A stretch of DNA of 64,000 nt, from NCBI RefSeq assembly GCF_964204645.1, contig NC_134033.1, positions 14,944,155-15,008,154 on the forward strand, written 5' to 3'. The stretch is from Tubulanus polymorphus. Taxonomy: Eukaryota; Nemertea; Palaeonemertea; Tubulaniformes; Tubulanidae. The translations under genes were made by a program, and so were the position numbers. Within the stretch, counting starts at the first letter, position 1; each line of letters starts with the position of its first letter. Positions 45,756 through 51,173 of the stretch are shown one piece after another. A model generated the notes under the pieces. That model saw only the letters and a program-made list of their open reading frames with translations, searched no databases and had not been told where the DNA came from.

Positions 45756-46810
45756 ATGAACCCTATGGGAGGTTTCCTTTGATCTTGATTTTCCACGTGT
45801 GGTAATTAAATGTCTACGGGAATGTGTTATAAAACCGTAATTCATGCATAGCGGATGCGGACCGCCTGCATTCATTGTTCCTCAGTTGGTGTAGTAACGA
45901 ATATTAGTTCCAATTGTGCTGGGTTCAATTTCACGAAAAAGTTTTTTTTCATTTAGTTGCTTCACGTTTTCTCAACGAGGTCGACAAATTCAAAAACGAC
46001 CGTTTTTAAGCGGAAACTTTTTCGCGAAACTGAACGCGGTTTTTCGATGTTGAGAATTAATTTTAAGTTGATAATTTCGATGTTTGTAGCAGCAGCAGCA
46101 GCAGCACGCACGCGGAGCCAGATTATTTCTGTATTATAATTATCGCGGCTAGGATTGATTGAAGAAATAAATTCGGTCCATTTTCTATGTTGTCAGATGT
46201 ATGTACGTATGCGTGTATGAATTCGGGGGGGTTAGTCAACGATGACTCCCGCACAATTATTCTGTTATGGAAAATATATAAATAAAATAAAGATGAATGC
46301 TTCTTTTTAAAACGGTGTTTTACTTCTGTTTATTGTTTATCTTGCTTTGCGTCATTGGAATCTTGGCAAGTTTTGCAACAAGTCTACTGTTTTACTATAT
46401 ATGCGGACACATCCTACATAGTGCACCAAACCATCTCGCTGTATTATGGAAGAAAATCTTGAATTCTTTAAAAAAATCTTTTATATTTATTAAGGGGTCA
46501 TAACCATAAGCTACGTCTACATTAGCTCATTGCATCCGTCTTACAGACAATGGATGTGGGTTCGACTTAAACCTGCATTCACAGCGTCAACACTTGCTGC
46601 GGCTTCGGTAGAATGAATACAAGCAAAAAAGCTGTTTCGCGCAAACACAGGGTACACTCTTCTTGTTCGAGGTTTTCTAAAGTTTTATACATGATAAGTG
46701 TTTCTAGTGTCGTGTAGAATTGCTAAACCCTGGGTCTAAAAACCAAGTGTAGACTTACGTGTTTATTTACGTGCACTTGTCAGGCTCAAGAAAATCCACA
46801 TTTGATATTA

Positions 46811-47129
46811 CAGGGTTCCTACAAATCAGTCGAGAATTCAAGGACTTTTCAAGAAGAAAATTTCGAGGAGTGTATGCATCACTTTCATATCTCGACTACT
46901 GTTGACACCTCCTAAATCGGTACTGTTTTACTCAGTAAACCATTTAATCAGGTGGAATCTGTGTATATAATAACTAGGCCTTGAGCCAAAAAATTGCCAA
47001 TTTCTCAAAATTCAAGGAGTTTCCAAGCACTTTTGGGCATTTTGCTCAAATTCAAGGATATTCAAGGACCTTGAAAAACATTTTTGGTTTAGAAGGAGTT
47101 TTCAAGGAATCAAGATGTAGGGACCCTGT
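46811..47129. mobile_element. CAGGGTTCCTACA MITE
   Basis: Inverted ends ACAGGGTTCCTACA and TGTAGGGACCCTGT. The interior TTCAAGGA-rich sequence is shared with 23285-23790, 49690-50080, 59980-60100, 61540-61960 and 62970-63230. hAT-like ends; target duplication unclear. Confidence 0.6.
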
Positions 47130-47432
47130 ATTACAACCAATTTAGTGTATATACTATGTCAACTCATTGGTCGTCATTTCTAATACCGCCTTCACTGATA
47201 CGGTCCTGTGGCTGGAGTTAAACAATGTTTGACTGTATAAAGAATTCAGTTGAAAATGAACCGCAAACCGGGGAGAAGGGAACAAATCCAGAACGATTCC
47301 TTTAAATGCGATCCGCCTCTAAGGACAGAAAGAGCCATTGAACGAAACTGACCTATGTCCTCTCAAGTCAAGTGGAATAAGGAGAGAAATTAATTCATCA
47401 ACTCGCTATTAATTCCTTCTGTACAATGACAA

Positions 47433-47462: not shown

Positions 47463-50400
47463 TTATTCTTTATCGGATTTCTTTTCAACTTCTTTCTTGC
47501 TTCCTCTTAATCTACCAGTACGTCTGGCAGCGATCAGACCGACCTGAAAATAAACCGAGTAACATTCAGTATACACTCTACAATATCAGACACAGAGGGT
47601 CGATGGGGAGTTGGTCAATGCCCAGTGCTTGACAACATGGTTAAAATTCAGTTCAAAGTGAAGAACTTTTATTTTTATCTCAACGCTCAGTGCCCAGTGC
47701 TTGACAACATGGTTAAAATTCAGTTCAAAGTGAAGAACTTTTATTTCCTCATCGCGTTGGAATTTTAAGGTTTACTTTAAGCTTCAGGAAAATTTTCTTT
47801 ATAAATGTTGATATTTCGAAACGCTCAGTGCCCAGTGCTTGACAACATGGTTGAGTTCAGTTCAAAGTGAAGAACTTTTATTTCCTCATCGCGTTTAGTA
47901 AGTAGTACGTAGGTCTGTGTTAGAGCAATTATAAATTTTTCTTGACGGTTTTTGATATTTCGAAACGCTCAGTGCCCAGTGCTTGACAACATGGTTAAAA
48001 TTCAGTTCAAAGTGAAGAACTTTTATTTCCTCATCGCGTTCTCAAATCTGGGATCCGAAATTCCCATAAGAATAAGATGTCTTTGCAAATAAAGCCAGCT
48101 GCTATCATTAACTGATTTCTCGAATTGAAAATTAATATTTGTTGCTCAGAAACAGCCTCTAAATGTTCCACACGGGAGTTTTTTTCAGAGATAATGATAA
48201 GAAATCATCACGGCAACAAGATATCAACGTTCGAAGAATTCAAAACAATACGCTTACCTTTCGTCCGTGTGATGTATCTCTTCGGACGGTCGAAGCGTGA
48301 CCAATATGTTGATGGTTACCACCACCGTGAGGATGCTCAACGGGCTGAAAAATAACAACAAACACAACGTGGATTACAACGAAATAAATTGCAGTTAGAA
48401 AACTAAACATGTTTCTGAAAATCCTGATTTAAGTTAATAGATATTTCAGCGCACAGTTGTTGACAACATGGTTGAAATTTAGTTCAAAGTGAAGAACTTT
48501 AATATCCTCATCGCGTTGAAATTCTAACATTTAAAATTTAAATTATCTATATATTTCTTAATCATAAACGCTCAGTGCCCAGTGCTTGACAACATGGTTG
48601 AGTTCAGTTCAAAGTGAAGAACTTTTATTTCCTCATCGCGTTTGTTAAATGTAAGTAGGTCTTAAGAAGTATAGTTCAAAATTCTTTTTAAAGGGTTTTG
48701 ATATTTTGAAACGCTCAGTGCCCAGTGCTTGACAACATGGTTAAAATTCAGTTCAAAGTGAAGAACTTTTATTTCCTCATCGCGTTGAAATTTTAAGGTT
48801 AACTTAAGCTTCATGATAATTTTCTTTATGAATTTTGATATTTCGAAACGCTCAGTGCCCAGTGCTTGACAACATGGTTGAGTTCAGTTCAAAGTGAAGA
48901 ACTTTTATTTCCTCATCGCGTTTGTTAAATGTAAGTAGGTCTTAAGAAGTATAGTTCAAAATTTTTTTTAAAGGGTTTTGATATTTTGAAACGCTCAGTG
49001 CCCAGTGCTTGACAACATGGTTAAAATTCAGTTCAAAGTGAAGAACTTGTATTTCCTCATCGCGTTCTCAAATCAGTTTTAAAATGAAAGAATAAAACTT
49101 CGCAGCTTTTAAAAAACATGAGAATAATAATTGAATGTTGCTCAGAAACAGCCTCTAAATGTTCTACACGAATATTTCAGAGAAAAGTGAATAGAAAACA
49201 TCAGCGCAACTTGAAAATCTAATCTTAAAATTATCTAGAAAATAAATTTGTCCTCAGGAAAAAATTAGAGTGAGAATTTACTAATCACGAGATATCAGTG
49301 ATTGATATTTCATCATAGGACACAAAAAAAAATGTTTATAACAAACTACAAAATATCGTCGAACTTCTAATAATTTATATCAAAATTAGTCCTCAGGAAA
49401 AAATTAGAGTGAATATTTTCATAATCATAAATGATCATACATTAAGTTTTTTCATCATAGGACTGTTGATAAAAGGAGCGTGACAAGACGGGTTGGTTTA
49501 GCGGCAGGGTTACTTACGTTCATAGCAACACCACGAACTTTAGGCCAACAGTTTCTCTTGGCCTTGTATTTGTGATAAGCACGACCGGCTTTCAACATAG
49601 GTTTATCGATACGTCCTCCTCCGGCAACAATTCCTGTCAAAACAAAAATACGATTAAAAACTTTTTCGAAACAGTCATCTCCACATTATTTGAACACGGT
49701 ACCTACAGATCCGTGATTCCTGGATACAAAAGTTCAAGAATTATCAAATTATCCCAATTACTGTAGACACCTCCAATATCGATACTGACAATCTCAGTAA
49801 AAGATGGTTTTATAAGCAAATATTTAAACTTGACTACCCCCTACCTAAAATCAGTTTCTATTTGAGTAACCTCCTATTAGGGCAAAAACTGTACCGATTT
49901 AGGCATAGTTTACTGTACAGCTTCAAACTAGACAAAAATTTCTGATTTCCAATTCCTCAAAATTGAAATTGAAGGCGTTTCCAAGGAGCATTATCCCCTA
50001 ATCGGAAGAGTTTTAACCACCTTCAAAGCACTTTCCAATTAGGAGTCATTACAGAATCAAGAAGTCGTAGGAACCCTGTAACAATGTTCATTACTAAGAA
50101 TACAGATCAGTTAAGCTGTGATGTAATACTAACCGACCATGGCTCTGTTAGCAGACGGAATTACACGTTTACTTCCCGACGGAAGTTTCACTCGCGATCG
50201 CTTCGTATCGGGATTGTGAGAGATGACGGTGGCGTAGTTTCCCGACGCTCTCGCCAGACGACCTCGGTCACCGGTCTTCTCTTCTAAACAGCAGACGATC
50301 GTACCCTCGGGCATCGCTCCGACGGGGAGGATATTACCGATCTGTAATACAGCTGAAATACAATCAATCTAAACGCGTTAATTTCCAGCGAGACAACAGT

Positions 50401-51173
50401 CATTTCAGTTTGGTCGGAGGCACTTCAATCATTTCTACCTTTTAATACCAGGGTTACTAAGGTTAGACGTACAACTGACCACCATATTTGTCGGATCCTC
50501 AATTATTCAATCAATTTGAAGGAATCCTATTGTCCCTGGTATCTCCCTAACCCCTGACCTAATTTATAAGATATCCTCAGTGGGTGCTATTTGTTAAATC
50601 AAGAAGTTCCGTGTGCCGCTCAACACACCAATGAACATCAGACAAAACATTAAAATTCCCTGATTTAAATGAAGCCGGAATTTGTGATTTTTCTTTCCAC
50701 CGGAAAAACTAAAACTGGAATTTCTGGATCCGAGACCCAAGAGTTTAGACTTCGTGTCAATGTCACGCTTGTGTTATTAAGGGTTGGGGGTTAGGCATTT
50801 TAAACAATCCCTAACCATCTAAAATCAATAAACATTTCAAAACATTGTCAATGACTCTGAAAAATAAATCAAGAATGGTGAACGTGAACTGACCTTTCTT
50901 TCCACAGTAAACAAACTGCCCGGTGTACATGCCCTCGGCCGCCAAAAAAGTCTCGGTTCTCATTCTATACTTGTACGGATCACGGAATCGAACCCTACAC
51001 AACGGAGCGCCACGTCCGGGATCGTGAAGGATCTCTTTCACGACGCCCTTGATGTAACCATTCCTCTCGGCGTAGTCGACCGGTCTCAGTTTAGCGGCGC
51101 CTTTGCGGTTTTTCGTATGCGAGCGGAAAACGCTGCCAGCACCTTTACGCTGACTTCTAATAACACGTCCCAT
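47463..51173 (-). CDS. RPL8: 60S ribosomal protein L8 (uL2), complete
   Basis: Five coding exons: 51173-50894, 50352-50134, 49633-49518, 48344-48258 and 47543-47463; 260 residues (human 257). uL2 lies at the heart of the large subunit near the peptidyl-transferase centre. Seen: start [19 protein letters not shown], then [88 protein letters not shown] (Asn215-His216, the histidine known to be hydroxylated in human RPL8) and [16 protein letters not shown] 5' UTR exon near 51431-51462 joins an acceptor 7 nt before the ATG. The last two introns contain nine copies of a box C/D snoRNA in sense orientation. Confidence 0.98.
47614..47680 (-). pseudogene. Box C/D snoRNA copy a, degenerate
   Basis: Keeps both guide stretches, but the D box reads TTGA and the C-box side is lost (no CGATGAGG). 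It abuts copy b and is the copy nearest to the 3' splice site of the last RPL8 intron. Confidence 0.7.
47682..47758 (-). ncRNA. Box C/D snoRNA copy b, RPL8 last intron
   Basis: 77 nt on the sense strand of RPL8. Terminal stem AACGC/GCGTT; C box GCGATGA (one change from RTGATGA); D' box CTGA; C'-like ATGTTGT; D box CTGA four to five nt from the 3' end. The stretch before D' (GTTCTTCACTTTGAA) and before D (AGCACTGGGCA) can pair with two sites close together in 28S rRNA as I recall it (TCAAAGTGAAGAA and TGCCCAGTGCT). By the +5 rule this predicts 2'-O-methylation of the second A of TCAAAG and the third C of TGCCC. Intron-encoded, so likely released from the RPL8 pre-mRNA. I cannot give a vertebrate name with certainty. 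Confidence 0.82.
47820..47895 (-). ncRNA. Box C/D snoRNA copy c
   Basis: Same stem, boxes and guides as copy b, with CTGAACTCAACC after the D' box in place of CTGAATTTTAACC. Confidence 0.82.
47964..48040 (-). ncRNA. Box C/D snoRNA copy d
   Basis: Identical in boxes and guides to copy b; first copy after the donor side of the last RPL8 intron. Confidence 0.82.
48446..48517 (-). pseudogene. Box C/D snoRNA copy e, degenerate
   Basis: C box, D' guide and D' region are kept, but the second guide is altered (ACAACTGTGCG before CTGA) and the terminal stem is broken. It is the copy nearest to the 3' splice site of the penultimate intron. Confidence 0.65.
48567..48642 (-). ncRNA. Box C/D snoRNA copy f
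   Basis: Intact stem, boxes and both guides; CTGAACTCAACC variant like copies c and h. Its flank on the copy-g side is nearly identical to that of copy h, showing a recent segmental duplication. Confidence 0.82.
48710..48786 (-). ncRNA. Box C/D snoRNA copy g
   Basis: Intact; CTGAATTTTAACC variant like copies b and d. Confidence 0.82.
48847..48922 (-). ncRNA. Box C/D snoRNA copy h
   Basis: Intact; CTGAACTCAACC variant. Confidence 0.82.
48990..49066 (-). ncRNA. Box C/D snoRNA copy i
   Basis: Intact boxes and guides with one change ahead of the D' guide (ACAAGTTC for AAAAGTTC). First copy on the donor side of the penultimate intron. Confidence 0.82.
49690..50080. mobile_element. CAGGGTCCCTACA-type MITE in RPL8 intron
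   Basis: Left end GGTACCTACAGATCCGTGAT, right end GTCGTAGGAACCCTG, with interior blocks shared with 46811-47129 and 23285-23790. Confidence 0.5.
50505..50735 (-). mobile_element. TTCTTACAGATC-family MITE fragment in RPL8 intron 1
   Basis: Shares ATAAGATATCCTCAGTGGG and TTCCGTGTGCCGCTCA with 485-800. The ends are decayed. Confidence 0.45.

Follow-up and report, generated by a model that had tools for sequence, protein, structure and literature searches.

Box C/D units in two introns of RPL8

The window analysed here, i. e. the whole 64,000-nucleotide stretch of Tubulanus polymorphus DNA, contains on its minus strand a ribosomal protein gene. The frame rebuilt from its exons was identified as uL2/RPL8 by PDB matches with E values of 8e-148 (9eho_A) and better (Table 1). 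The last two introns of this gene carry eight (penultimate) and five (last) box C/D units on the sense strand and are thus intronic snoRNA clusters; together they hold 13 units, 11 of which are apparently intact. In the sense direction, the order in the penultimate intron is snoA1, snoA2, snoB1, copy 1 (a), copy 2 (b), copy 3 (a), copy 4 (b) and the degenerate copy 5, and in the last intron snoB2, copy 1' (a), copy 2' (b), copy 3' (a) and the truncated copy 4'.

The numbered copies form an array of one 76-77 nt unit, which occurs nine times on the minus strand of 47614-49066. The penultimate intron has five of the copies and the last one four; seven of the nine are intact. A genome-wide DNA search of the 268-Mb assembly found no array copies beyond these nine. 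Copy 5 retains the C box and guide 1, its D' box reads CTAA, and guide 2 and the 3' half of the terminal stem are gone. Copy 4' is without the C box and the 5' stem, and its D box reads TTGA. The two defective end copies are unlike in kind: copy 5, with 89% identity, is old, and copy 4', with 98% identity over 60 nt, is a recent 5'-truncated duplicate.

The original prediction had placed nine copies on the RPL8 sense strand, four in the last and five in the penultimate intron, and had called the copy closest to the 3' splice site degenerate in each intron. Coordinates, strand and introns all proved correct, and the last copy is defective in both introns. It had overlooked four further box C/D snoRNAs there, namely the snoA and snoB copies.

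Downstream of RPL8 (46809-47130) there is a MITE-like repeat whose terminal repeats read TACAGGGTCCCTAC, and RPL8 intron 2 contains a diverged copy of it (about 49720-50080).

Table 1. RPL8 and the box C/D units of its last two introns (positions in the window)
Feature	Position	Strand	Basis or remark
RPL8 (uL2) host gene	47463..51173	-	260 aa spliced frame, GT/AG introns; PDB match uL2/RPL8
RPL8 coding exons	51173-50894, 50352-50134, 49633-49518, 48344-48258, 47543-47463	-	
RPL8 penultimate intron, 1173 nt	48345..49517	-	
snoA1, box C/D	49388..49464	-	k-turn scan; stem AGTCC/GGACT, C box ATGATGA
snoA2, second snoA copy	49249..49322	-	k-turn scan
snoB1, box C/D	49137..49210	-	stem GTTGC/GCAAC, C box CTGATGT
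Array copy 1, intact, type a	48990..49066	-	DNA search + k-turn scan
Array copy 2, intact, type b	48847..48922	-	DNA search + k-turn scan
Array copy 3, intact, type a	48710..48786	-	DNA search + k-turn scan
Array copy 4, intact, type b	48567..48642	-	DNA search + k-turn scan
Array copy 5, degenerate	48446..48517	-	89% identity over positions 1-72
RPL8 last intron, 714 nt	47544..48257	-	
snoB2, snoB copy	48139..48219	-	7-bp stem, C box GTGATGA; k-turn scan
Array copy 1', intact, type a	47964..48040	-	DNA search + k-turn scan
Array copy 2', intact, type b	47820..47895	-	DNA search + k-turn scan
Array copy 3', intact, type a	47682..47758	-	DNA search + k-turn scan
Array copy 4', 5'-truncated	47615..47674	-	98% identity over unit positions 13-72 (60 nt)

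Architecture of the array unit

All seven intact units have a terminal stem AACGC/GCGTT of 5-6 bp and the C box ATGAGGA. Read in this way, the C and D boxes adjoin the terminal stem in k-turn geometry, with GAU as a 3-base bulge, followed by tandem G-A pairing between the C and D boxes and then by a G-U and a G-C pair. AUGAGGA deviates from a perfect C box by one mismatch, and the Rfam consensus sequences of snR76 and ceN89 have this variant too; the C' box is a degenerate ATGTTGT. The original prediction was right that seven copies keep the boxes and two guides, but its C box, GCGATGA, had to be replaced by ATGAGGA two bases downstream. In GCGATGA, the GC is taken up by the terminal stem, where it pairs with the GC that follows the D box, and nothing remains for a k-turn bulge; ATGAGGA alone yields a stem, a 3-nt bulge and the tandem G-A pairs that make up a k-turn, and for this reason it is the C box.

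A scan for k-turn geometry on both strands of the 64 kb gave ten matches, every one inside the two RPL8 introns: the seven intact units, snoA1, snoA2 and snoB2. By chance about 0.1 would be expected (mean of twenty random windows), under a tolerance of one C-box mismatch, set with the array already known and used alike for the whole window and the random sequences. In the Rfam search, none of the families reached its cut-off on the array; in copy 3, one half was matched by SNORD37 (E 0.01) and the other by snR76 (E 0.89).

Guides and predicted 28S targets

The D' guide forms 13 and the D guide 11 perfect base pairs with 28S in three eukaryotic 28S sequences. These come from other eukaryotes because searches of the assembly with a conserved 28S DNA query, a 5.8S query and an exact 28S pattern, the last of which had zero matches, did not bring up intact rDNA of the species itself. 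Both 28S and 18S were read from three rDNA contigs of eukaryotic origin that are deposited within bacterial metagenome bins; one of these contigs stems from a tubeworm symbiont sample. On this 28S, each guide is an rRNA-pairing stretch of at least 10 nt upstream of D or D' with a fifth-nucleotide target: the rule assigns the D' guide to the A in 28S TCA[A]AG and the D guide to the C in 28S TGCC[C]AG. The match of the guides to 28S had been foreseen, whereas the predicted gap of about ten bases was not found; the target stretches are 7 nt apart and the two predicted methylated nucleotides 17 nt.

Human Cm3701/Am3718 and Arabidopsis Cm2198/Am2215 are mapped pairs, each likewise 17 nt apart (PMC11542601). 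By this spacing and by base identity, on which the assignment of residues to the published methylation table rests, the predicted sites would be those matching human Am3718 (D' guide) and Cm3701 (D guide). SNORD37 presumably serves human Am3718, and we take snR76 and SNORD88 to serve 28S Cm3701 and yeast Cm2197, the latter as the equivalent of the D-guide site.

The k-turn geometry, the 13-bp and 11-bp 28S duplexes, the coincidence with mapped sites and the near-identity of the units against diverged linkers (see below) together make a dual-guide box C/D snoRNA, as originally predicted, a well supported reading of the array units at the sequence level. That the array is instead a non-functional intronic tandem repeat, resembling snoRNAs by chance, is hardly credible. 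Such repeats are common and Rfam yielded zero families above cut-off, but the excess of k-turn matches (10 vs 0.1 expected), the known methylation sites under both guides and the sense orientation of all units within a ribosomal protein gene speak strongly against a fortuitous resemblance.

Elsewhere in the 268-Mb assembly there is no other site of guide 1 adjoining CTGA. Three other genomic matches of guide 2 (C3, C7) were rejected as their sequence is not C/D-like, the C7 pair lying within a short tandem repeat. Two isolated rDNA pieces are apparently pseudogenes, a diverged 28S fragment at C4:26396688-26396799 (locus L010) and a 5.8S copy at C8:6271837-6271975 (L011). Viral contigs scanned for exact 28S patterns gave one 3'-end fragment and nothing more. 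In L013, a contig of eukaryotic origin placed in a tubeworm-symbiont genome, 28S breaks off at about 470, near CTCTCTTA; R2 usually inserts close to this point, and an R2-like insertion is suspected.

snoA, snoB and other snoRNA loci

The D guide of snoA1, CACTCTAATTTTTTC, pairs with 18S GAAAAAATTAGAGTG (18S of locus L015) in a 15-bp duplex including one G-U pair. An identification of snoA as snoR53Y from an Rfam match was dropped because the guide differs. snoB1 and snoB2 are paralogues, the C box of snoB1 being the weaker one. The snoB D guide pairs with 28S GTGAAC[A/G]GCCTCTAG, with two G-U pairs on the sequence from the tubeworm sample, and the predicted site would lie near yeast A1449 / human Am2363. 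Within both pairs of paralogues, identity is concentrated in the part from the guide to the end: 23/24 columns compared with 26/41 in the middle for snoA1 and snoA2 (p 0.003), and 32/34 compared with 32/48 in the remainder for snoB1 and snoB2 (p 0.003).

A candidate guide for Am3724, a site neighbouring those of the array, appears to sit in RPL7A (locus L046, 5219-5296). An apparent snoRNA host locus beside RPL7A (L048 2661-5354, which is assembly C7:101500-107500, and L046) has at least six k-turn C/D matches, and one C/D RNA occurs twice there. This locus contains a SNORA62-like, a C/D and a SNORD110-like RNA inside 310 nt and is a second multi-snoRNA stretch of the genome; since the spacing leaves no room for exons between them, the trio counts as an intronic cluster. 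Strong SNORD36 matches (59.5 and 64 bits) were found 1.5 kb apart in a glutamine-rich gene (L045, 2585-2658 and 4122-4196).

Selection and history of the copies

At matching positions between the two introns, the units differ at 1/230 sites and the aligned linkers at 19/124 plus gaps (p 1e-8). Conservation thus favours the units over the linkers, as the original prediction led one to expect. The intact copies differ from each other solely in spacers, i. e. in one base between the C box and guide 1 and in the D'-C' spacer. Taken together, the comparisons of units with linkers and of the snoA and snoB copies favour purifying selection. Inter-copy gene conversion could be the source of some of the unit identity in the array; the comparison of snoA and snoB is informative because their other parts have diverged, which makes conversion less likely there.

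Both introns share the order B, a, b, a; therefore the cassette predates its presence in both of them. Linkers 1 and 3 of the penultimate intron are identical at 66/67 positions, and this single difference indicates a recent doubling of one a-b pair in that intron. The history would then lead from a B-a-b-a cassette in both introns through divergence of the linkers to the recent duplication of an a-b pair in the penultimate intron.

A possible interpretation is that the box C/D snoRNA is functional and its copy number neutral, the result of unequal crossing-over and gene conversion without selection for dosage. The identity of the snoRNA is then the same as in our preferred reading and only the reason for the copy number is disputed. 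The regular spacing of the array, with periods of 143 and 280 nt, fits such a neutral expansion, as do the recent a-b duplication with its nearly identical linkers and the decaying or truncated end copies. However, seven copies remain intact though the linkers diverged between the introns at 15% of the aligned sites, and the a/b spacer difference recurs in the same order in both introns, which means that wholesale homogenisation from neighbour to neighbour was limited. We give the neutral account somewhat less than an even chance overall. Dosage amplification as the reason for the copy number is plausible but unproven, and on the narrower question of retention for dosage or by neutral expansion the odds are about even.

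Proposed release of the snoRNAs from the introns

In our preferred reading, to which we assign a probability of about 0.87 as a whole, the two introns are polycistronic box C/D cassettes with an amplified dual-guide member. Both would be transcribed with RPL8, spliced out and processed to C/D RNPs of about 74-81 nt, and we infer that the RNAs themselves are produced. The D' guide of the amplified RNA would direct 2'-O-methylation of the A in TCA[A]AG, and the D guide that of the C in TGCC[C]AG.

Exonucleases alone would release just the outer edges of an intron with several snoRNPs; for this reason internal endonucleolytic cuts would be needed, by which the internal copies would be freed. With a GC content of 10-31%, the linkers are rich in AU, and the comparison of the two introns showed no conserved processing hairpin in them, which is why we propose cuts in these AU-rich stretches. 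RNase III-type hairpins were considered and rejected: the 7-bp stem of linker 1 is absent in the last intron, and the folding energies are weak (-0.4 to -3.5 kcal/mol). In mammals the favoured position of a snoRNA is about 70-80 nt from the 3' splice site. Here the intact copies are 138-645 nt away from it, and the distances of 71 and 101 nt belong to the two defective copies; the working copies thus sit outside the usually favoured position.

RNA between two snoRNPs of one intron can be protected (PMC11028025). This and the lack of a conserved hairpin in the linkers would also suit an array that acts as a precursor with several snoRNPs, like a sno-lncRNA chain or a sponge, instead of as separate guides. 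We consider this improbable, as the divergence of the linkers far exceeds that of the units and the guides and boxes are all retained. A more far-reaching version of the cassette reading is a composite SNORD37 + SNORD88/snR76 guide, selected to seven working copies per transcript, with up to eight snoRNPs freed per intron by an endonucleolytic route undescribed for animal C/D snoRNAs; in this full form it is doubtful.

Comparison with known snoRNA families and clusters

The two guides of the array unit are found in different families. The Rfam consensus carries UUCUUCACUUUGAcCUGA in SNORD37 and GCACUGGGCACUGA in snR76. SNORD37 (RF00440) has the identical D' guide UUCUUCACUUUGA, followed by one base and CUGA. 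The array unit differs from it by a second guide, another terminal stem and the C box ATGAGGA, and by being present in many copies with RPL8 as host, whereas the vertebrate host of SNORD37 is EEF2. In snR76 (RF01209), which together with SNORD88 (RF00604) covers the other site, the guide GCACUGGGCA before CUGA is identical and the C box is AUGAgGA; this guide is in the first half of snR76, whereas in the array unit it is the D guide and is joined with the SNORD37 guide. On the array, the gathering scores were missed by SNORD37 (22.8 vs 45 bits), SNORD88 (at most 23.5 vs 46) and snR76 (14.6 vs 55), and no single Rfam family matched both guides at once. ceN89 (RF01662) has the identical terminal layout CGCGAUGAGGA ... 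CUGAGCG, but its guides do not match the array unit. The fusion of two guides kept in separate Rfam families implies that modification sites can be re-assigned among snoRNAs.

Animals have predominantly one snoRNA per intron, and intronic clusters are recognised (PMC11028025). The original prediction was right in describing the RPL8 layout as unlike one snoRNA per intron, but there are precedents, both in these clusters and in the second multi-snoRNA stretch of this genome. In Drosophila, Huang reportedly described in 2004 clusters of box H/ACA snoRNAs within introns (title listed among the references of PMC2246290). These are similar in having several snoRNA genes per host-gene intron; the RPL8 snoRNAs differ in being of the C/D type, with nine copies of one unit over two neighbouring introns and two other C/D types beside them. 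A literature search returned no relevant reports on snoRNA arrays in molluscs or annelids, and to our knowledge the copy number of such an array is unusual. The array is a natural test of whether the dosage of a guide RNA limits rRNA methylation, and also of how many snoRNPs can be released from one animal intron and in what way the inner ones get out when no conserved processing hairpin is present. Since intronic snoRNA clusters are already known, including another one in this genome, the RPL8 array is a familiar arrangement in unusually dense form and not a new kind of system.
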